Positions 5,641-61,094 of a stretch of DNA of 64,000 nucleotides are shown in pieces. A program made the translations under genes and the position numbers. The stretch comes from Sphingopyxis sp. (lineage in GTDB: Bacteria; Pseudomonadota; Alphaproteobacteria; Sphingomonadales; Sphingomonadaceae), in assembly GCA_016793775.1 (NCBI GenBank), contig JAEULK010000030.1, forward strand, positions 33,813 through 97,812. Reading direction: 5' to 3'. Position 1 is the stretch's first letter. Each line of letters begins with the position of its first letter. Under the pieces are notes generated by a model that made no database searches, was not told the DNA's origin, and saw only the letters and a program-made list of their open reading frames with translations.

Positions 5641-5666
5641 GTAACCCCGCGGCGCGCCCCCGCGAA
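5641..5666 (+). promoter_or_regulatory. Probable SigF-type ECF promoter of the buf operon
   Basis: Exact GTAACC (5641-5646), a 16-base spacer, then CGAA (5663-5666), 51 bases before the bufA start. As I recall, GTAACC-N16-CGAA is the motif reported for promoters of the Caulobacter ECF factor SigF. A SigF-like sigma gene lies at the end of this operon, so autoregulation is likely. Confidence 0.75.
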
Positions 5667-5717
5667 CAGCAGCACGATGCCATCCCCCGCATCGTCCATT
5701 TAAAAGGGAGCAACCCC

Positions 5718-6014
5718 ATGTCGAATAGCCTCAAACTCTCGCTGGCCGCCTCGGCCGTCCTCGCCATGGCCGCCGGCGCCATCGCCGTCCCCGCCGCGTC
5801 GGCCGCCGAAGGCAAGACCGAAAAATGCTATGGCATCGCACTGAAGGGCAAGAACGACTGCGCCGCGGGTCCGGGCACCAGCTGCGCCGGCACCTCGACG
5901 GTCAATTATCAGGGCAATGCCTGGAAACACGTCAAGCCCGGCACCTGCGTCAAGCTGGGCGGCACGCTGAGCGCGCATCAGGGCAATGCCAAGCCGGTCG
6001 CCAAGAAGGGCTGA
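5718..6014 (+). CDS. bufA1: Bufferin-1 precursor (DUF2282 family), secreted copper-binding RiPP
   Basis: 98-residue precursor. A Sec signal peptide (basic start, hydrophobic core, AASAA near residues 26-30) precedes a short mature part with four cysteines at 37, 48, 56 and 77. The [14 protein letters not shown] block is the DUF2282 hallmark. In Caulobacter, related peptides (bufferins) are modified on cysteines by a BufB/BufC pair, exported to the periplasm and bind copper. The next two genes here are that pair. AAGGGAG lies 8 bases upstream of the ATG, and a SigF-type motif lies upstream. First gene of the operon. Exact modified residues are not deducible. Confidence 0.9.
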
Positions 6015-6024
6015 TCGCAAAGCC

Positions 6025-6894
6025 ATGACACCTCCCCGCCCGCTCCGTGACTTGCCGCGATGCGCCGGCTTCGGGCTCAAGCCCGAACACCATGCCGACG
6101 TGCTGGCGGCGGCGGAGCGGTCGACCCTGCCCGCCTGGGCCGAAATACACCCCCAAAATTATTTCGGCGCAGGCGGGCCTCCGCATCGCTGGCTGGCCGC
6201 GATCGCGGCGCATCTGCCGCTGAGTTTCCACTCGGTCGGGCTGTCGCTCGGTTCGGCGGCCGGGGTCGATGAGGCGGAACTCGAAGCGCTCGCCGCGCTG
6301 TGCGACCGCTATCGCCCCGCGATGGTTTCCGACCATCTGAGCTGGAGCAACGGCGGCGACGAGAAATTTCCCGACCTCTTGCCCATCCCCTATAGCCATG
6401 CCGCGCTCGACCATTTCGTGGCGCAGGTGGTCCGGGTGCAGAACCGGCTGGGGCGCCCGATCCTGATCGAAAATCCGTCGCGCTATGTCGCTTTTGCCGG
6501 TGATGCCTGGTCCGAGGTCGATTTCCTCCACGAACTTTGCCGCCGCAGTGGCTGCGGGCTGATCCTCGACATCAACAATGTCGAGGTGTCGGCGCATAAT
6601 CTCGGGCTCGATGCCGATGCCTGGCTTGCCGCCTTCGACCCCGCGCTGGTCGGCGAAATCCATGTCGCGGGCCATGCGGTCAAGGACGACGGACTGGGCG
6701 GGACGATCGCGATCGACGACCATGGTTCGGCGGTGCGCGCCAGCTGCTGGGACCGGCTCGCCACCTTCCTGCGCCGCGCCGGGCCGAAACCGGTGCTCGT
6801 CGAATGGGACAGCGATATTCCCGATTTCGCGACGCTGATGGCCGAGGTCGCGACCGCCGACGCGCTGCTGCAGGCCGAACCCGGCGATGCTTGA
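6025..6894 (+). CDS. bufB: BufB: MNIO (DUF692) multinuclear iron oxidase
   Basis: 289-residue TIM-barrel enzyme of the DUF692/MNIO family, which oxidises cysteine residues in RiPP precursors using a multi-iron centre. Diagnostic blocks are AWAEIHPQNYF (36-47), SFHSVGLSLGS (67-77), VSDHLSW (101-107), LIENPSRY, LDINNVEVSAHNLG (181-194) and EIHVAGH (211-217). Candidate metal ligands are His69, His104, Glu149, Asp182, His213 and Glu260. Start at 6025, 10 bases after bufA; upstream in-frame codons belong to bufA. Overlaps bufC by 8 bases. The expected substrate is the adjacent BufA peptide. Confidence 0.92.
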   Translation: MTPPRPLRDLPRCAGFGLKPEHHADVLAAAERSTLPAWAEIHPQNYFGAGGPPHRWLAAIAAHLPLSFHSVGLSLGSAAGVDEAELEALAALCDRYRPAMVSDHLSWSNGGDEKFPDLLPIPYSHAALDHFVAQVVRVQNRLGRPILIENPSRYVAFAGDAWSEVDFLHELCRRSGCGLILDINNVEVSAHNLGLDADAWLAAFDPALVGEIHVAGHAVKDDGLGGTIAIDDHGSAVRASCWDRLATFLRRAGPKPVLVEWDSDIPDFATLMAEVATADALLQAEPGDA

Positions 6895-7600
6895 GCGGGA
6901 TCAGGCGGCGATCGTCGCGACGCTCCTCGAAGGGCCGGCGCGCCTGCCGACCGATTTATTCGCCGGCGCATGGCGGCAGGTGCTGCGCGCGATGACGGTC
7001 CACGCCAACACCATTTCGCACGCGCGGCTGGTCGCGCTCGAAGACACCTTCCCGCGCACTCGCGCGTATCTGGGCAACGCCGAATTCAACCGCCTGTCGC
7101 GCGATTTCCTCGACCGTGGCGGCGCCAGGGGCCGCGCCCATGCGCAGATCGGTGCGGGCTTCCCCGATTTCCTGGCACACGAAGCCGGCGTCATCGCGAC
7201 CGACCTCGCGCGTATCGAATGGGCCTGGCTCGCCGCCTATCATGCTGCCGACGCGCCCGCACTGACGCTTGCCGATGTCGCGGGGCAGGGCGAGGCGAGC
7301 CTGCTCGCGCTGCCGGTGCGGCTACACCCTGCGGCGATGATGCTGATGCTGGCCAGCGACGCCGCGCCGATCCTCGATCCCGCGTTGCCCGCCGGGACCG
7401 CCGCGCTGCTCCTCACCCGGCCCGAGGCCGAGGTGCGACTGCTTCCGGCTACCCCCGCGACGCTCGCGCTGCTCGATGCCGCCCGAAAAATCATCCCCCT
7501 CGGTAACCTGATCGAACGCCTCGCCGAACAGCAGGACGGAGGCGGGGCTGCCGTCGTGCCGCTGATCGCGGCGGGCGCGTTCGAGAGGGTCCGACGATGA
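6887..7600 (+). CDS. bufC: BufC: DUF2063 partner protein of the MNIO enzyme
   Basis: 237-residue protein with the DUF2063 N-terminal pattern (LFAGAWRQVLRAMTVHANTISHARLVALEDTFP). It is mostly helical and normally encoded beside DUF692 enzymes, where it acts as precursor-recognition partner. Its start lies inside bufB (8-base overlap) and its stop overlaps the doxX start (ATGA), so the genes are translationally coupled. A second SigF-type motif sits inside its 3' end. Confidence 0.9.
   Translation: MLERDQAAIVATLLEGPARLPTDLFAGAWRQVLRAMTVHANTISHARLVALEDTFPRTRAYLGNAEFNRLSRDFLDRGGARGRAHAQIGAGFPDFLAHEAGVIATDLARIEWAWLAAYHAADAPALTLADVAGQGEASLLALPVRLHPAAMMLMLASDAAPILDPALPAGTAALLLTRPEAEVRLLPATPATLALLDAARKIIPLGNLIERLAEQQDGGGAAVVPLIAAGAFERVRR
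7503..7528 (+). promoter_or_regulatory. Candidate internal SigF-type promoter ahead of doxX-sigma-anti-sigma
   Basis: A second exact GTAACC (7503-7508)-N16-CGAA (7525-7528), inside the bufC coding sequence and 68 bases before the doxX start. About a dozen other GTAACC hexamers noticed on either strand of the window do not have CGAA at this spacing. It could give an extra transcript for doxX, sigma factor and NrsF. No experimental support is visible. Confidence 0.55.
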
Positions 7601-8055
7601 CGAAGGCGATGCAATATTACGACCGCGCGGTGCAACTCGCCAGCGCGCGTCTTCCCGAAGGGCTGGTACTGCTGTTGCTGCGCGTCGCGCTGGCCGGCGT
7701 CTTCTGGCGCTCGGGCCGGACCAAGGTGGCCGAGGGCAGCTGGCTGCAAATCGACCCCGGCACCTACGAGCTGTTCAAGAGCGAATTTTCGGGCCTGCCG
7801 CTCGACCCGTCGATCGCCGTGCCGCTGACCACCTTCGCCGAACATTTCTTTCCGATGCTGCTCTTGCTAGGCTTGGCGACGCGCCTTTCGGCGGGCGCGT
7901 TGCTGGTGATGACGCTGGTGATCCAGATTTTCGTCTTTCCCGATGCCTGGTGGCCCGTGCACAGCCTGTGGGCGGCGATGGCGGCGGTGCTGATCGTGCG
8001 CGGCGGCGGCCTCTTTTCGCTCGACGCGCTGGCACTGAAATCGCGCCGCCGGTGA
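7597..8055 (+). CDS. DoxX-family membrane protein of the buf operon
   Basis: 152-residue protein with four predicted membrane helices (for example LVLLLLRVALAGVFW, MLLLLGLATRLSAGALLVMTL and a C-terminal WAAMAAVLIVRGGGLF segment). It has the DoxX pattern, including an Arg in the first helix region (FWRSGRTK). DoxX proteins are frequent companions of bufABC, probably in respiratory or redox support of the pathway, but their role is not known. ATGA overlap with bufC upstream and GTGA overlap with the sigma gene downstream. Confidence 0.85.
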   Translation: MTKAMQYYDRAVQLASARLPEGLVLLLLRVALAGVFWRSGRTKVAEGSWLQIDPGTYELFKSEFSGLPLDPSIAVPLTTFAEHFFPMLLLLGLATRLSAGALLVMTLVIQIFVFPDAWWPVHSLWAAMAAVLIVRGGGLFSLDALALKSRRR

Positions 8056-8573
8056 GTATCGACGAACCCTCGCTGGCACGGCTGATGGCGGCGGCGCAGC
8101 GCGGCGACCGCGCCGCGTACCGCGCGCTGCTGACCGATTGCCAGCGCTGGTTGTCGCGCTATTTCGCGCGCCGTATCGCGCCGCACCAGATCGACGACCT
8201 GGTGCAGGAAACATTGGTGTCGATGCACCGCAAGCTCGCGACCTGGGACAGCAGCCGCGCCTTCCTGCCCTGGCTCGCGGCGATCGCGCGCTATCGCTGG
8301 ATCGACGCGCTGCGCCGCCGGCGCGACGCCGCCGAACTCCATGACGACGACGCCTTCGTCGATGCCGAGGACGAGGCGGTGCATGCGCGGCTCAGCCTCG
8401 ATCGCATGCTGATGCACCTGCCCTCGGGGCAGGCGCAGGCGATCACTTTGGTCAAGATCGAAGGCGCCTCGATCGCGGAGGCCGCGCAAATTTGCGGCCA
8501 GAGCGAATCGCTGGTCAAGGTGAATATCCATCGCGGGCTGAAGAAGCTCGCGCTCCTGATTGAAAGTGAATGA
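8052..8573 (+). CDS. sigF: ECF sigma factor, SigF-like
   Basis: 173-residue RNA polymerase sigma factor of the extracytoplasmic-function type. It has region 2 (RYFARRIAPHQIDDLVQETLVSMHRKL then WLAAIARYRWID) and region 4 with a helix-turn-helix (EGASIAEAAQICGQSESLVKVNIHRGLKKL). I chose the GTG at 8052, which overlaps the doxX stop and leaves the family N-terminus; the longer upstream frame is doxX antiparallel noise. Followed 1 base later by its predicted membrane anti-sigma. By synteny with Caulobacter SigF, it should drive the buf operon under copper/chromate/cadmium-type stress. Confidence 0.88.
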   Translation: MSIDEPSLARLMAAAQRGDRAAYRALLTDCQRWLSRYFARRIAPHQIDDLVQETLVSMHRKLATWDSSRAFLPWLAAIARYRWIDALRRRRDAAELHDDDAFVDAEDEAVHARLSLDRMLMHLPSGQAQAITLVKIEGASIAEAAQICGQSESLVKVNIHRGLKKLALLIESE

Positions 8574-8574
8574 G

Positions 8575-9225
8575 ATGACGGACGCATCGATCGACGAACT
8601 GATCGAGGGCCTGACCGGCGACCTCCAGCCGTTGAAACCGCGCCGGATCGCGCGCGGCTCGCTGTGGGTCGCGGCGGGCTGGCTTGCGGGGGCGGCCGCC
8701 TTGCTTTGGGTCGCGGGCATGCGCCACGACCTTGCGGCGGGCATCATGATGCCGCCGCTGCCGATGCTCGCCTTCTGGACGATCGTCGCGCTCGGCGTCG
8801 CGGCGGCGTGGAGCGCGCTGCGCATGGGACTGCCCGGGGTCGGCCGCGATTACAGCGGCTGGTATTGGGCCGGGCTCGCCGCGCTCGCGCTGCCGCTCAC
8901 CGCGCTCGTCATCGGGTTCGGCGACCATCGCGCCGCGATGGAGGCGGCACGGCCCGAGAACGGGCTGCGCTGCATGATCGAGGGCGCCATGTCGGGGCTG
9001 GGCGTCGGCCTGGCCCTGTTCGCCTGGCTGAAGCGCGCCGCGCCGACCTCGCCCGCCCGCGCGGGCTGGGCGATCGGCATCGCCGCGGGCGCCGCGGGCG
9101 CGACGATCATCGCGCTCCATTGCGCGTCGAACGACATGATGCATATCGCGCTGTGGCACGGCCTCGCGGTTGCGCTGTCGGGCATCGCCGGACGCGTGCT
9201 GCTCGCGCCGCTGCTGCGCTGGTAG
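8575..9225 (+). CDS. nrsF: NrsF-type (DUF1109) membrane anti-sigma factor
   Basis: 216-residue integral membrane protein with about six hydrophobic segments and a short cytoplasmic N-terminus (TDASIDELIEGLTGDLQPLKPRR) of the DUF1109 family, which binds the cognate ECF sigma. It has only two cysteines, C133 and C183, each in a short loop between membrane segments. As I recall, Caulobacter NrsF has two functionally important cysteines at nearly the same positions (131 and 181), used to sense oxidising metals. The ATG at 8575 is preferred to an upstream TTG at 8560, which overlaps the sigma gene. Confidence 0.9.
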   Translation: MTDASIDELIEGLTGDLQPLKPRRIARGSLWVAAGWLAGAAALLWVAGMRHDLAAGIMMPPLPMLAFWTIVALGVAAAWSALRMGLPGVGRDYSGWYWAGLAALALPLTALVIGFGDHRAAMEAARPENGLRCMIEGAMSGLGVGLALFAWLKRAAPTSPARAGWAIGIAAGAAGATIIALHCASNDMMHIALWHGLAVALSGIAGRVLLAPLLRW

Positions 9226-9240
9226 CGTCTGGACAGCCAA

Positions 9241-9274
9241 TCCTTCGTGTGTTATCGAAATAACACACGAAGGA
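9241..9274. promoter_or_regulatory. Perfect 15-bp inverted repeat covering the RBS of the first GIN gene
   Basis: Arms 9241-9255 and 9260-9274 are exact reverse complements around a CGAA loop. The right arm contains AAGGA of the ribosome binding site (AAGGAG at 9270-9275). A possible -35 TGGACA (9231-9236) and -10 TATCGA (9253-9258) would place it across the promoter. It may be a repressor operator, an RBS-masking RNA hairpin, or a 3' hairpin for nrsF. Confidence 0.75.
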
Positions 9275-9282
9275 GATTTGCG

Positions 9283-10041
9283 ATGCGTAACTGGACGATG
9301 GCGATGCTGCCGCTGGCCCTGGCGATGACGGCGTCGGGTTGCAGCGGGTCGATCACCCGCGACGACAAGGACGGTGAAAAGACCACGCGCGTCGATGCCG
9401 GCCCGCCGACGACCAAGAATTTCGCGCTGACCGGTTTCACCGGGGTCGAGGTCGCGGGCCCCGACGATGTCACCATCCGCCAGGGCGAGACCTTCGCGAT
9501 CAGCGCCAAGGGGCCGCAGGCCGAGATCGACGAACTCGACATCAAGCTCGACGGATCGACGCTGTCGATCGGGCGCAAGCGCGAGGGCTTCAGCTTCCGC
9601 GGCGGCGACCATGACGGAGTCGAGATCGCGATCACCATGCCCAAGCTCGATACGGTTCGGCTGACGGGGTCGGGCTCGGTCGATGCCGACAGCGTCGACG
9701 GCGACGCGGTCAAGGCGTCGCTGACCGGATCGGGCGACCTCAAGATCGCCAGGATGACCGGCAAGACCGCCGACCTGACCGTGTCGGGCTCGGGCGACCT
9801 CGCCATCGCCGCCGGCACGATCGCCTCGGGCGAAGTCGGCATCACCGGGTCGGGCGATATCGATGCGGGCGGGCTGGCCGCGCAGACGCTCGACATCTCG
9901 ATCACCGGATCGGGCAATGTCGAGGCGCAGGCGACCGGCAAGGCCGATATCCGCATCCTGGGGTCGGGCGACGTCGATCTGATCGGCGGCGGCAGCTGTT
10001 CGACCAAGACGATGGGATCGGGCACCGCGACCTGCAAATAA
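9283..10041 (+). CDS. GIN-domain (DUF2807) lipoprotein with repeated GSGD motifs
   Basis: 252-residue exported protein. The signal sequence ends in a lipobox-like TASGC, so membrane anchoring is likely. The body is the GIN/DUF2807 head domain: an auto-transporter-adhesin-like beta-helix built on repeated (L/V/I)(T/S)GSG(D/S/N) turns, six of which are visible. The family's function is unknown, with suggested roles in envelope stress. The ATG at 9283 follows AAGGAG and is preferred to an earlier in-frame GTG inside the hairpin. A second GIN protein is encoded 43 bases downstream. Confidence 0.85.
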   Translation: MRNWTMAMLPLALAMTASGCSGSITRDDKDGEKTTRVDAGPPTTKNFALTGFTGVEVAGPDDVTIRQGETFAISAKGPQAEIDELDIKLDGSTLSIGRKREGFSFRGGDHDGVEIAITMPKLDTVRLTGSGSVDADSVDGDAVKASLTGSGDLKIARMTGKTADLTVSGSGDLAIAAGTIASGEVGITGSGDIDAGGLAAQTLDISITGSGNVEAQATGKADIRILGSGDVDLIGGGSCSTKTMGSGTATCK

Positions 10042-10084: not shown

Positions 10085-10795
10085 ATGGCTTCATTGATCC
10101 GATCCGCCGCGCTCGCGGCCGCCGCCTTCCTGACCGTTCCTTCCGCATCGGCGGCCGAGAAACGTTTCGGCCTCACCAGTTTCGAGGCGATCGAGGTGAC
10201 CGCCGACGTCGCGGTCGAGGTGGTGGCGCGCGCGCCGGTCAGCGCGATCGCGACCGGTCCGTCCGACGCGCTCGACCGGCTGACCGTCGAGGCGCGCGAC
10301 GGCAAGCTGGTGATCGGCCAGAAAATCTATGCCGGCGACGGGGACCGGCGCCAGCCGCTCGGCCGGGTGACCTTGCGCATCAACGCCGCCAATCTGCAGT
10401 CGGCGACCGTCGTCGGCGCGGGATCGCTGCAGATCGATGGGCTGAAAGGCACCCGCGTCGCGATCGGCCTGCGCGGCCCAGGGCGGATCACTGTCGGCAC
10501 CGTCACCACCGACCGGCTCGTCGTCGCGATGGTCGGCAATGGCACGCTGGCGCTCGGCGGCACCGCGAAGACGGCGCAGATGACGCTGTCGGGCGCGGGG
10601 CAGGTCGATGCGAGCGCGCTCGCGGTCGGCGAACTGATCAGCGACAGCGAAGGCACCGGCGACCATATTTTCCAGGCGGTGAAGACCGCCGCGATCACGA
10701 CGCGCGGGCTGGGCAAGACCGTGGTGCTCGGCAAACCCGTGTGCACCGTGCGCAACGTCGGCAGCGGTACGGTGCAATGCGGCACGAAGAAATAG
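10085..10795 (+). CDS. GIN-domain (DUF2807) secreted protein, divergent paralogue
   Basis: 236-residue protein with a Sec signal peptide (AAAAFLTVPSASAAEKRF) and a degenerate GIN-type beta-helix. Glycine turns such as VVGAGSLQI, LRGPGRI, LSGAGQVDAS and GSGTVQCG replace the strict GSGD repeats of the upstream gene. Two cysteines near the C-terminus (CTVRN...VQCG) match the CSTK...TATC pair of the first GIN protein and may form a disulfide. Probably co-transcribed with the upstream gene. Confidence 0.8.
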   Translation: MASLIRSAALAAAAFLTVPSASAAEKRFGLTSFEAIEVTADVAVEVVARAPVSAIATGPSDALDRLTVEARDGKLVIGQKIYAGDGDRRQPLGRVTLRINAANLQSATVVGAGSLQIDGLKGTRVAIGLRGPGRITVGTVTTDRLVVAMVGNGTLALGGTAKTAQMTLSGAGQVDASALAVGELISDSEGTGDHIFQAVKTAAITTRGLGKTVVLGKPVCTVRNVGSGTVQCGTKK

Positions 10796-57217: not shown

Positions 57218-59307
57218 CAGCGGTCCGCCAGCTCGGTCAGCGTGGCGGGGGTCAGGATCTGCGGCAAAATCTCGGGCTTGGCGGCGCCCGGCGCGTACCA
57301 GAGATACAGCGGCACGCTGTTGCGGCCATGCTCGGCGAGCGTGCGCGTGATCGCGGGATCGCCATTGGTCCAGTCGCCGACCAGCGTCACGACGCCCTTC
57401 GCCTTGAACACCTCCTGCACCGCCGCGCGGTTGATCGCGCCTGCTTCGTTCGCCTTGCACGACAGGCACCAGTCGGCGGTGAAATAGACGAAGACGGGTT
57501 TGCCCGTTGCGCGCGCTTTGGTGAGAGCGGCGGAGGTGAATTCCTGACCTGTCGCACCGGTGGCGACGCCCAATGCCGGTTGGTTGGCCAGTATCACGGC
57601 GTTATTGCCGTTGATGAAGAGCGCGCCCACCGCAACCAAGGCGACGAGCCAGCCCCACCGTGGTTGCCGCTGGTAACTCCCCAAGGCAGTCAAGGCGACT
57701 GCGCTGAAGATCAGGGCGTCCCGTGCCGCCGACCAGCCGCCGTCGCCGGCTTGCCGCAACAACAGCCATGCCAGTGCCAGCGCCGTCAGTCCCATCGGCA
57801 GCGCCATCCATTTGCGGAAAGTCGCCATCCACGGCCCCGGCCTGGGCAGGCGATTGCGCAGCGCGGGTACGAAACCGATCGCGAGGAAAGGTAGGGCGAG
57901 GCCGAGGCCCAACCCGCCGAAGATCGGCAGCGCCGCCCAGGCGGGCAGCACCAAAGTCGCGCCGAGCGCGGCGCCGAGCAAAGGTCCGCTGCACGGCGTC
58001 GCGACGAACGCCGCGAGCGCCCCGGTCCAGAACCCGCCCGCCGCGCCGCCCTTGTTCGCCAATTTCTGTCCGCCGCCGAACGACCGCAATTCATAGACGC
58101 CGAGCAGGTTGAGCGTGATCGCGATCGCAAGCAGCAACAGGATCAGCACGCTCACCGGATGCTGCAACTGGAACGCCCAGCCGACCTGCTCGCCCGCCGC
58201 GCGCAGCGCGAGCAGGACGCCGCCGAGCGCGAGGCTGACCAGCACCGCGCCCGCGGTATAGGCCAGCGCCTCGACCTTCGCCTCGCGCGCATTGCTGCCC
58301 GAGCGCGCGAGGCTCAGCGCCTTCAGGCTCAGGATAGGAAAGACGCAGGGCATCAGGTTCAGGATCAGCCCGCCGAGGATCGCGCCGCCCAGCGCCGCCC
58401 AGAAAAGTCCGGCGTCGATGCCGGGCTTTGCGGTCGCGACCGGATCGCCCGCCGCCCGCACCGCCGCCGGCTCGAACTGCACCGTCAGCCCGCGCCCGTC
58501 GGCCAGCTTTATCAGCCCGCGCGCCGGCCCCGCCGCATCGCCCTTGCCGCGCGTCTCGACGACGATCCAGTCGCCGTTGCGGCTGAAGCTTTGCGGGGCG
58601 CCATAATCGATCAGATTCTGCGTCTCCAGGAACAGGTGCGGCGCCTCGATCGCGACCCCGGCGGGCAGCGGGATATCGAAGCGCAGCGTGTCGCCGCGCC
58701 GCTCCCAATGGCCCCCGCGGTCGAGCGGCTGCGGCAGCCGCGCGCGCCAGGCGTCGAAGCGCGTCCGCGCGTCCGGCGCGATCACGCCGTCGCCCGCCTT
58801 CAGCCTGACCGAAATCACCGCCTTCTCGGGCACGCAGACCTTGTCGGTGCAGGCGAGCCAGTTGGCGACCCCCGCCAATGTCAGGTCGGTCCCCGGCGCC
58901 ACCGACTTCGCGACATGGACGTCGGCGAGCAGCGCATAGGGATGCTCATAGACATGGTTCATCAGTCCGAAGAGGACGAGCGCCTCGGGCACGGGATAAC
59001 GGAAGGCGTCGACCGTTACCCCCTCGGGCAGGTTCCAGTCGACCGACAGGCCGAAACCCGCGTCGCCGCCGTTGAGCCAATAGCCGTGCCAGCCCTTGGC
59101 GGGCGTCATGCTCAGCGCGAGGGTCGATGTCGTGCCGGGCGCGGGGGCGGGCGATTCGGCGATCAGCTCTGGCGTGATGTTCACCGCCGCCGGCGGCGGG
59201 CCCATCGGCTGCGCCCGCGCCGGACCGGTCGCCAGCAGGACGAACGCCAGCATCGCGAACGCCGCGCGCCACGCGCCTGTCACAAATTTGTCCCTAGTGC
59301 AGCCCAT
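57217..59307 (-). CDS. DsbD-like thiol:disulfide reductase (ScsB-type)
   Basis: About 696 residues from the ATG at 59307 (a TTG at 59334 is an alternative). Signal, then a DsbD-alpha-like periplasmic domain (ANWLACTDKVCVPEKA), a membrane electron-transfer domain (NLMPCVFPILSLKAL and VATPCSGPLLG, the two conserved Cys), and a C-terminal thioredoxin-like domain (FTADWCLSCKANEAG). It transfers reducing power from the cytoplasm to periplasmic proteins. Tightly followed by tlyA. Confidence 0.9.
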   Translation of the reverse strand: MGCTRDKFVTGAWRAAFAMLAFVLLATGPARAQPMGPPPAAVNITPELIAESPAPAPGTTSTLALSMTPAKGWHGYWLNGGDAGFGLSVDWNLPEGVTVDAFRYPVPEALVLFGLMNHVYEHPYALLADVHVAKSVAPGTDLTLAGVANWLACTDKVCVPEKAVISVRLKAGDGVIAPDARTRFDAWRARLPQPLDRGGHWERRGDTLRFDIPLPAGVAIEAPHLFLETQNLIDYGAPQSFSRNGDWIVVETRGKGDAAGPARGLIKLADGRGLTVQFEPAAVRAAGDPVATAKPGIDAGLFWAALGGAILGGLILNLMPCVFPILSLKALSLARSGSNAREAKVEALAYTAGAVLVSLALGGVLLALRAAGEQVGWAFQLQHPVSVLILLLLAIAITLNLLGVYELRSFGGGQKLANKGGAAGGFWTGALAAFVATPCSGPLLGAALGATLVLPAWAALPIFGGLGLGLALPFLAIGFVPALRNRLPRPGPWMATFRKWMALPMGLTALALAWLLLRQAGDGGWSAARDALIFSAVALTALGSYQRQPRWGWLVALVAVGALFINGNNAVILANQPALGVATGATGQEFTSAALTKARATGKPVFVYFTADWCLSCKANEAGAINRAAVQEVFKAKGVVTLVGDWTNGDPAITRTLAEHGRNSVPLYLWYAPGAAKPEILPQILTPATLTELADR

Positions 59308-59390
59308 GCCCGCGCCGTTCCGTCCATCGTTCAAGGCTTGCCATATAGGCGGCTTTCGTCGAGAGGACAGCCCGCGCTGAAACCCCCGCT

Positions 59391-61094
59391 ATGGAGACGA
59401 CGCCCGTGACGATCAAACGCCTGACCCTCGCTCTCGCCGCCGCCCTGTCTTTTGCCGCTACCGGCGCCGGTTTCGCCCAGGATTCGGCGCCACCGGCACA
59501 GAGGGTTACAGCCGACACCCCGCCGCCCAAGCTGATCGTGATGGTCGCGGTCGACCAATTCTCCGCCGACCTCTTCGCCGAATATCGCAGCAAGTTCACC
59601 GGCGGCCTCGCGCGCCTCGCTTCGGGCGCGGTGTTCCCGTCGGGTTATCAGTCGCACGCCGCGACCGAAACCTGCCCCGGCCATTCGACGATCCTGACCG
59701 GCAACCACCCCGCGCACACCGGAATCGTCGCGAACAATTATTTCGACCTCGCGGTCGGCCGCGAAGACAAGCGCGTCTATTGCGCCGAGGACGAGAGCGT
59801 TGCCGGGACCAGTTCGGGCAGCGGCAAATATGCGGCGTCGGTCGGGCATCTGCTGGTGCCGACGCTCGGCGACCTGATGAAGGCGCGCGATCCCAAGACG
59901 CAGGTCGTCTCGGTCGCGGGCAAGGACCGCGCCGCGATCATGATGGGTGGGCGCCAGGCCGACGAACTGATGTGGCTCGTGCCCACCGGGCTCACCGGCT
60001 ATCGCGGCACCGCGCTGTCGCCCACCGCGACGCAGGCGAGCGCCGCGATCGCCGCCGCGATGGCGCAGCCGCGCCCCGCGCTGACCTTGCCCGCCGATTG
60101 CGCGTCGCACGATATCGCGATCCCCATCGGCGGCAATGACGGTAGGGGCGGCACCGTCGGCACCGGCCGCCTTGCGCGCGACGGCGGCAATTTTCGCGGA
60201 TTCATGGCCTCACCCGAAGCCGACGGCGCGGTCCTCGCCACCGCCGCGGCGCTGCGCCAGGTGCGCAAGATGGGCGAGGGCAGCGGCACCGACCTGCTCG
60301 TCGTCGGCCTGTCGGCGACCGACTATGTCGGCCACACCTATGGCACCGAAGGCAGCGAAATGTGCCTGCAGATGGCGGGGCTCGACCGCGAACTCGGCGA
60401 TTTCTTCGCGCGCCTCGACGCGACGGGCATCGACTATGCCGTCGCGCTGACCGCCGACCATGGCGGCCACGACCTGCCCGAACGCAACCGCCAGAACGCC
60501 TGGCCCGCCGCCGAACGCGTCGACCCGGCGCTCGACCCCGACAAGCTGGGCCAGGCGGTCGCCGAAAAGCTCGGCCTGCCGCAGCCTTTGCTCTACAGCG
60601 ACGGCCCGTTCGGCGATATGTATCTGGCAAAGACGCTGACCCCGGCGCAGCGCAAGGCGGCCTCGGCCGAACTGCTCGCCCGCTGGCGCGCGCACCCGCA
60701 GGTCGAGGCGGTGGTCACCGCTGAGGAACTCGCCAAATATCCGATCTCGAAACGCTCGCCCGACGTGTGGAGCCTGATGGACAAGCTGCGCGCCTCCTAT
60801 AATCCGGCGCGCTCGGGCGATTTCCTCGTCGTGCTCAAGCCGCGCGTCACGCCGATCCCCGAATCGGGCCTCGGCTATGTCGCGACCCATGGCTCGGTGT
60901 GGGATTATGACCGCCGCGTGCCGATCCTCTTCTGGCGCAAGGGGCTGGCCGGTTTCGAACAGCCCAATGCGGTGATGACGGTCGATATCATGCCGACGCT
61001 GGCGGGCGTGATCGGCCTGCCGGTCGATTCTGCAAAGGTCGACGGCCGCTGCCTCGACCTGCTCTCGGGCCCGGCGACCAGTTGCCGCCCATAA
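59391..61094 (+). CDS. Secreted alkaline phosphatase-superfamily enzyme (PafA-like)
   Basis: 567 residues. Signal peptide (LTLALAAALSFAATGAGFAQ). IVMVAVDQFSADL holds the metal Asp; HAATETCPGHSTILTGNHP contains the Thr nucleophile; DLLVVGLSATDYVGHTYG and LTADHGGHD supply metal ligands. This order fits phosphate-irrepressible PafA/nucleotide pyrophosphatase-type enzymes in the periplasm. Start is ATG 59391 or GTG 59406. Divergent from dsbD. Confidence 0.88.
   Translation: METTPVTIKRLTLALAAALSFAATGAGFAQDSAPPAQRVTADTPPPKLIVMVAVDQFSADLFAEYRSKFTGGLARLASGAVFPSGYQSHAATETCPGHSTILTGNHPAHTGIVANNYFDLAVGREDKRVYCAEDESVAGTSSGSGKYAASVGHLLVPTLGDLMKARDPKTQVVSVAGKDRAAIMMGGRQADELMWLVPTGLTGYRGTALSPTATQASAAIAAAMAQPRPALTLPADCASHDIAIPIGGNDGRGGTVGTGRLARDGGNFRGFMASPEADGAVLATAAALRQVRKMGEGSGTDLLVVGLSATDYVGHTYGTEGSEMCLQMAGLDRELGDFFARLDATGIDYAVALTADHGGHDLPERNRQNAWPAAERVDPALDPDKLGQAVAEKLGLPQPLLYSDGPFGDMYLAKTLTPAQRKAASAELLARWRAHPQVEAVVTAEELAKYPISKRSPDVWSLMDKLRASYNPARSGDFLVVLKPRVTPIPESGLGYVATHGSVWDYDRRVPILFWRKGLAGFEQPNAVMTVDIMPTLAGVIGLPVDSAKVDGRCLDLLSGPATSCRP

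Follow-up and report, generated by a model that had tools for sequence, protein, structure and literature searches.

A Buf1-type bufferin operon as the probable hub of a SigF-NrsF stress regulon in Sphingopyxis

Do bufferins serve copper alone, or do they answer copper-driven oxidation? The question is raised by a locus of Sphingopyxis sp., in which six adjoining genes on the + strand (5718-9225) encode a DUF2282 bufferin precursor, a multinuclear non-heme iron-dependent oxidative enzyme (MNIO), its DUF2063 partner, a DoxX protein, an extracytoplasmic function (ECF) sigma factor and the anti-sigma factor NrsF. The locus lies in a stretch of 64,000 nucleotides (assembly GCA_016793775.1, contig JAEULK010000030.1, positions 33,813 to 97,812 of the forward strand), called the window below. 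An initial annotation, made from the letters of the window only, had described a bufferin operon with its own sigma/anti-sigma pair. From sequence comparisons, we estimate at about 0.8 the probability that a SigF-NrsF stress regulon in Sphingopyxis is centred on this Buf1 bufferin operon. If this regulon is real, bufferin production would be part of a broader response, together with thiol and methionine repair and metal export, and this would bear on the question asked above.

The operon and its class

The features of the operon are given below. All Pfam matches exceed the curated cut-offs of their families.

5641-5666, + strand: ECF16/SigF-type promoter motif GTAACC-N16-CGAA, 51 nt upstream of the bufA start codon
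5718-6014, + strand: bufA, Buf1 (DUF2282) bufferin precursor of 98 aa (Pfam DUF2282, 78.5 bits)
6025-6894, + strand: bufB, MNIO (DUF692) bufferin maturase (Pfam MbnB_TglH_ChrH, 302.8 bits; NCBIfam MNIO_BufB)
6887-7600, + strand: bufC, DUF2063 partner of the MNIO (Pfam DUF2063, 45.9 bits, cut-off 27.2)
7503-7528, + strand: second ECF16/SigF-type promoter motif, inside the coding sequence of bufC and 68 nt upstream of doxX
7597-8055, + strand: doxX, DoxX-family membrane protein without cysteine (Pfam DoxX, 59.5 bits)
8052-8573, + strand: sigF, ECF sigma factor with a GTG start (Pfam Sigma70_r4_2, 53.2 bits; Sigma70_r2, 43.7 bits)
8575-9225, + strand: nrsF, DUF1109/NrsF anti-sigma factor (Pfam NrsF, 128.2 bits) with Cys133 and Cys183

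The gene content and order read in the initial annotation were borne out, and the DUF2282, DUF692 and DUF2063 profile searches that it had proposed placed bufA, bufB and bufC above cut-off. Its overlaps of 1-8 bases at every junction did not hold: bufA and bufB are separated by 10 nt, the next three junctions are overlaps of 8, 4 and 4 nt, and sigF and nrsF are separated by 1 nt. The coordinate at which it began, 5641, is the first base of the ECF16-type promoter; neither of the two promoters nor the wider regulon figured in it. When the genome (3.93 Mb, 106 contigs) was searched with profiles, the operon contained its only DUF2282 match, its only NrsF match and one of its two MNIO genes.

BufA starts with a single hydrophobic segment and a Sec-type signal peptide ending in a plausible Ala-x-Ala cleavage site, all judged by eye. 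Its cysteines 37, 48, 56 and 77 are the four conserved cysteines of a Buf1 peptide, of which the two central ones are reported to be modified while the outer two form a disulfide (PMC12452194). BufB passes the NCBIfam MNIO_BufB cut-off (324.5 vs 310 bits). Aligned with 3BWW, it keeps H-x3-LSLG, SDHLS, EN, D-x-NN, IH-x-AGH and D-x-HG. It contains the N-N and D-x-H motifs, and residues N175, D242 and H244 are reported as essential in HvfB (PMC13419390), the likeness to HvfB being one of motif and not a residue-by-residue mapping. The five closest named relatives of BufB (L169-L173) are all from Sphingopyxis, with 72-85% identity, and on this ground the window and its genus-mates compared below are taken to be Sphingopyxis. 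BufC, DoxX and NrsF stay below the cut-offs of the NCBIfam equivalogs HvfC (36.3 of 142 bits), HvfX (45.8 of 80) and AntiSigF_NrsF (51.8 of 300) and are therefore family members rather than close equivalogs. A sequence search up to E = 1 returned no solved structure resembling BufC.

Other assignments were rejected. BufA is not a Buf2 peptide (NCBIfam BufA2, 33.4 bits vs a cut-off of 60). A methanobactin or chryseobactin cluster is contradicted by the MbnB and ChrH scores (50.7 of 325 and 27.8 of 600 bits), and the EGKCG/oxazolin class was set aside because the precursor is a DUF2282 protein. The locus has the parts of a Buf1 cluster, namely a DUF2282 precursor with four cysteines and a signal peptide, a bufferin-type MNIO, and DUF2063 and DoxX proteins. 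The name bufferin was thus well chosen, being supported by the profile matches, the four cysteines and the SigF-type promoter upstream of bufA. Judged by these features, the cluster belongs to the known Buf1 type together with its regulators, a kind already described; sigma and NrsF genes within Buf1 clusters have been reported previously (PMC12452194).

The presence of a dedicated sigma/anti-sigma pair was likewise confirmed by the Sigma70_r2, Sigma70_r4_2 and NrsF matches and by the two conserved NrsF cysteines. Cys133 and Cys183 occur in 55/55 distinct NrsF proteins aligned (56 rows, the window's copy having been entered twice). Their spacing of 50 is that of C131 and C181 in Caulobacter NrsF, whose change to serine was reported to derepress the regulon (PMC3511200). 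The assignment of SigF to group ECF16 was made from its anti-sigma factor and promoter motif: a DUF1109/NrsF protein with two conserved cysteines stands beside the ECF sigma factor, and the motif upstream of bufA equals the published consensus, tGTAACc-N16-CGAA (PMC3420878).

SigF-type promoters in the genome and the family

The window contains three matches to GTAACC-N15-18-CGAA, as compared to 0.12 expected. Two are those of the operon. The third (59483-59509, - strand, N17) lies upstream of a DsbD-like thiol:disulfide protein, the frame of which is 57220-59388 (- strand); a DsbD-like gene is described as an EcfF target in Bradyrhizobium (PMC3420878). This match was not counted; its N17 spacer is atypical and it lies inside a divergent reading frame. 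Genome-wide, the N16 pattern occurs at 10 places, as compared to 5 for the reversed control.

We then considered 199 genomes of the host's family. NrsF is encoded in 95 of them and an MNIO in 70, and 64 of the 70 MNIO genomes also have NrsF. The remaining 31 NrsF genomes have no MNIO, showing that the switch also governs other regulons within the family. The survey of loci comprised 80 MNIO loci and the two of the window's genome; five MNIO places (two G018 fragments, G174:C24, G195 and G022) were left out. A one-direction layout like that of the window was found in 18/82 loci, including one with sigF ahead of doxX and one with no precursor detected. In 33 loci the layout is divergent, the Buf1 gene and doxX facing away from an MNIO-DUF2063 unit that carries a Buf2 gene in 30/33 cases. 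sigF-nrsF stands immediately upstream of Buf2-MNIO in three loci, and NrsF was not seen in the fetched stretch of 28.

For 116 precursor genes, the motif was sought in the interval 40-250 nt upstream of the conserved part. The exact N16 motif precedes 64 of them. With at most one mismatch, it was found before 96/111 precursor genes in genomes with NrsF and before 0/5 in genomes lacking it; for comparison, 1.2% and 2.1% of 20,000 random 210-nt pieces drawn from these loci matched, and the reversed motif precedes none of the 116 genes. Where NrsF is encoded in the same stretch, the fractions are 49/55 for Buf1 and 32/33 for Buf2; where it is encoded elsewhere in the genome, a category that includes stretches cut by a contig end, they are 8/13 and 7/10. 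The opposite strand also matches before 38 of the 116 genes, most of them in divergent layouts.

Buf1 and Buf2 genes of this family are frequently found at a common locus, under the same type of promoter. At L094-L096, L098, L101-L103 and comparable loci, a Buf1 gene, together with doxX-sigF-nrsF, and a divergent Buf2 gene stand beside a single MNIO, the only one found in the genome, so that one enzyme may serve both bufferin families.

The second MNIO gene of the window's genome belongs to a Buf2 cluster on another contig, with two tandem Buf2 precursors (98.8 and 86.6 bits, BufA2 cut-off 60) and a DUF2063 protein. No sigma factor of SigF's family is encoded in the 12 kb surrounding this cluster. 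GTAACC-N15-CGAA occurs 52 nt upstream of the likely Buf2 start, and SigF probably controls the cluster as well. In Caulobacter, SigF was reported to control a second MNIO cluster in trans (PMC3511200, PMC8224329).

A genus-wide regulon footprint

To delineate the regulon, 13 NrsF-bearing genomes of the genus and two lacking NrsF were searched for the motif with the N16 spacer only, a search that N15 promoters escape. The 13 NrsF genomes contain 146 places as compared to 70 for the reversed motif, the two others 5 as compared to 10 (Fisher p = 0.009, species being treated as independent). Orthologs were grouped by BLAST and the family names tested on one member each. G042 (L159, L193) was added to the genus table separately and stands outside the following figures, which give the number of NrsF genomes with the motif ahead of each group.

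Glutathione reductase (gor), first gene after the motif: 12/13, start 28-33 nt downstream
Short open reading frame followed by msrA: 12/13
egtB: 11/13, the window's genome not among them
bufA: 10/13
Embedded bufC site: 9/13
Cytochrome b561: 9/13, eight at a fixed 8 nt and G201 at 159 nt
Small secreted Cys protein heading an efflux operon: 6/13
Stand-alone sigF: 5/13

A molybdopterin oxidoreductase gene directly follows cytochrome b561 in 9/9 cases, and the small secreted protein is followed in 6/6 by the same 87-aa protein and a TolC-like gene. CusB-like and resistance-nodulation-division (RND) genes come next in the window's genome, the only one where this pair was seen, the other stretches ending within the TolC-like gene. 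The members tested scored 626.7 bits for glutathione-disulfide reductase, 151.9 for MsrA, 573.9 for EgtB and 436.2 for ACR_tran; the CusB model match (337.5 bits) is below its cut-off of 390. In three genomes, a further motif target has a weak RclC match (61.1 bits, cut-off 275). Of the five motif places in the two genomes without NrsF, none of the four listed belongs to a conserved target group.

In the wider family, among the best 30 gor loci of 195 matching genomes, the motif precedes gor in 4/10 genomes with NrsF and in 0/20 without (p = 0.008). Three of these four genomes belong to the window's genus, so the gor link is mainly a genus trait. Methionine sulfoxide reductases have been reported as ECF16 targets in Bradyrhizobium, Caulobacter and Brucella (PMC3511200, PMC8224329, PMC8315932, PMC3420878). 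Among the open-access papers that our searches listed, we found no report of gor, egtB or cus under ECF16 control. For egtB, EcfG would be a rival regulator, since egtB and egtD of S. granuli TFA are described as being under its control (PMC7083833).

Some loci concentrate such promoters. At L370-L374 of relatives (G203:C23, G201:C17, G206:C530), a complete bufferin-sigF-nrsF operon is accompanied by several further SigF-type promoters, an arrangement reminiscent of a mobile stress-resistance island; over about 31 kb of G203:C23 there are nine, including two inside the operon. At L373 and L312, SigF-type promoters precede genes for small, lipoprotein-like peptides that contain numerous Lys-Pro-Cys and Lys-Gly-Cys repeats. 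The one peptide tested gave no Pfam match; these peptides are possible further MNIO substrates.

Copper and oxidation as possible signals of the switch

These observations suggest the following scheme, in which we infer the signal, the cysteine modification and the copper binding from relatives. NrsF would hold SigF at the inner membrane until Cys133 and Cys183 are attacked by copper or by a related stress, oxidising or thiol-binding, and SigF is released. SigF-RNA polymerase would then start after 5641-5666 and transcribe bufABC-doxX-sigF-nrsF. A second start after 7503-7528, inside bufC, would give doxX-sigF-nrsF alone, so that the switch would refill itself separately from the peptide genes. 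In BufA, the two central cysteines would be turned into 5-thiooxazoles by BufB with BufC, and the peptide, exported by Sec, would bind copper in the periplasm. SigF would also turn on gor, MsrA, the cytochrome b561/molybdopterin oxidoreductase pair and the Cus-like efflux operon.

Since copper is itself an oxidant of thiols and methionine, a joint copper/redox response would be compatible with both the copper-related and the redox-related evidence. We lean towards SigF-NrsF being a joint copper/envelope-redox regulator. It would bring together a copper-binding ribosomally synthesized and post-translationally modified peptide, gor, methionine sulfoxide repair, ergothioneine (through egtB, in most relatives) and Cus-type efflux, and it would be fed from a promoter kept by selection inside the partner gene, yielding doxX-sigF-nrsF without the peptide.

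It is possible, though clearly less probable, that the switch mainly senses oxidants or reactive chlorine, in which case the bufferin would act as a redox buffer or scavenger and not store copper. The targets are mostly redox-repair functions (gor, msrA, egtB, cytochrome b561/molybdopterin oxidoreductase and the weak RclC matches). ECF16 relatives are reported to answer hypochlorous acid (HOCl) in Brucella (PMC8315932), and hydrogen peroxide (H2O2) and singlet oxygen in Bradyrhizobium (PMC3420878). Since most footprinted targets repair oxidised thiols or methionines and these relatives answer HOCl or H2O2, a view restricted to copper is disfavored. A primary redox sensor, however, would not account for the Cus-like efflux operon as a repeated target. 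It also conflicts with reports on Caulobacter, where the regulon was induced by copper in both media tested and loss of sigF caused copper sensitivity (PMC8224329), whereas H2O2, tert-butyl hydroperoxide, paraquat and diamide raised two regulon genes at most twofold (PMC3511200). Across species, the relatives of the switch respond to Cu, Cr or Cd, to H2O2, or to HOCl (PMC3511200, PMC8224329, PMC8315932, PMC3420878).

A promoter motif embedded in bufC

The 7503-7528 motif lies in frame within bufC, ahead of doxX-sigF-nrsF, and, if functional, it would drive a SigF-dependent transcript of these three genes alone. A motif near the end of bufC is kept in 27/31 sphingomonad operons with sigF-nrsF seen downstream. 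The first 30 of these operons comprise survey loci (15/18), named Sphingopyxis loci (5/5) and further loci of the genus (7/7); two of the three exceptions have GTAACT. The motif is missing in the 31st operon, L372. Among 12 sphingomonad clusters without NrsF in the stretch, it was found in two (L143 and L145), both of genomes with NrsF, and it occurs in none of 15 other named loci (L174-L188, two with NrsF).

The residue preceding the Asn encoded by the motif varies between operons and is Gly, Arg, Cys or Ser, which corresponds to the four NGT codons. That any NGT codon is used at this place, although GGT makes up only 6/96 Gly codons of the window operon, speaks for selection acting on the DNA. 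If such selection maintains a promoter inside a coding sequence in 27/31 operons, this would be a clean case of overlapping codes.

The motif could instead be a side effect of conservation in the DUF2063 protein (x-N-L...E) and no promoter; we consider this unlikely. The motif is indeed in frame, and the encoded Asn, Leu/Phe and Glu are conserved wherever it occurs. A constraint on the protein would however not explain the variable residue before Asn. Moreover, N-L...E is absent from the DUF2063 proteins of 10/12 sphingomonad clusters without NrsF in the stretch and from those of all 15 named loci L174-L188, including the two with NrsF.

Points against a common regulon

Several results weigh against the operon as the hub of a SigF-NrsF regulon. 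Motif matches alone are no proof of function. The loose pattern (N15-18) is not enriched genome-wide, with 23 places as compared to 29 for the reversed control, and conservation therefore has to decide; in this respect, species of one genus are not independent samples. msrB was rejected as a conserved target, the motif being present only in the window's genome (1/15 with NrsF, 0/15 without, among the best 30 loci of 192 matching genomes). The N15 spacer ahead of the Buf2 cluster is the sole case among 67 family promoters (65 N16, one N17), so that the probable control by SigF may be weak. Concerning the embedded motif, 10 of the 12 clusters without NrsF in the stretch sit in NrsF genomes, yet only two keep it (8 of the 10 clusters without the motif belong to NrsF genomes), and the contig-cut operon L160, its sigF not seen, lacks it. 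Finally, reporters of the homologous S. meliloti system were described as not induced by H2O2, Cd or chromate (PMC6180224), and a C. metallidurans cluster is reported to have no effect on copper resistance (PMC8224329).

A plain six-gene operon with chance matches elsewhere is nevertheless very improbable: the loose pattern is no commoner than its control and 3/10 N16 places of the genome (L008, L011 and L015) fall within coding sequence, where they were taken as chance for want of conserved orthologs, but the N16 excess is confined to the NrsF genomes (146 vs 70, against 5 vs 10) and orthologous genes carry the motif at near-fixed distances in 6-12 of 13 genomes.

Downstream of the operon

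Two adjacent DUF2807 (head GIN domain, Pfam) proteins are encoded downstream of the operon, at 9283-10041 and 10085-10795. A perfect 15-bp inverted repeat with a 4-nt loop (9241-9274) separates nrsF from the first of them, its right arm covering most of the AAGGAG ribosome-binding site of the DUF2807 gene. RNA folding of 9226-9300 gave -31.1 kcal/mol (z -5.4). The palindrome was considered as an operon terminator or shared operator and not retained as such; its core occurs once in the genome and a similar element is present in 2/12 relatives' loci (L365, L367). It could be an operator or a translation switch.

Comparison with known systems

The closest described system is that of Caulobacter vibrioides, where CC3254-CC3257 and SigF-NrsF (CC3253-CC3252) make up the same set of DUF2282, DUF692, DUF2063, DoxX, SigF and NrsF proteins. 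A SigF promoter likewise precedes the precursor gene, and the two conserved NrsF cysteines are 50 residues apart. The initial annotation had invoked this locus both for its control by SigF, which holds, and for a gene order identical to that of the window, which does not: in Caulobacter, sigF-CC3252 and CC3254-CC3257 are described as two transcription units, each with its own promoter, sigF-nrsF not being strongly autoregulated (PMC3511200). In the window, in contrast, sigF-nrsF ends the same operon and a promoter motif is embedded in bufC. Caulobacter SigF was reported to control the homologous cluster, a second MNIO cluster and MsrPQ, all induced by copper, and a sigF::Tn5 mutant is copper sensitive (PMC8224329). 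The target table of PMC3511200 does not include gor, msrA, egtB or cus.

In Sinorhizobium meliloti, the ECF16 pair RpoE7-EcfR7 controls a DUF692/DUF2063 operon (SMb20530-SMb20527) through the same promoter type, though in a divergent layout. EcfF-OsrA of Bradyrhizobium and BcrS-AbcS of Brucella also combine an ECF16 sigma factor with a DUF1109 anti-sigma factor having two conserved cysteines, and their regulons include methionine sulfoxide reductases (PMC8315932, PMC3420878). They differ from the window's system in that the available parts of these two papers mention no bufferin cluster; the inducers described are H2O2 and singlet oxygen in Bradyrhizobium (PMC3420878) and HOCl in Brucella (PMC8315932). 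Captophorins (oxazolin HvfABC, fontiphorin, gonophorin) resemble the window's system by their MNIO, DUF2063 partner and Cys peptide with 5-thiooxazole that binds Cu (PMC13097082). Their precursors have EGKCG repeats instead, and SigF-NrsF is not mentioned in the available part of that source.

Overall, the comparison indicates an ordinary cluster under an unusual and well-conserved control scheme. As judged from the sequences, what is new here is the wiring: a promoter motif embedded in bufC and a footprinted regulon with gor, an efflux operon and, in relatives, egtB.

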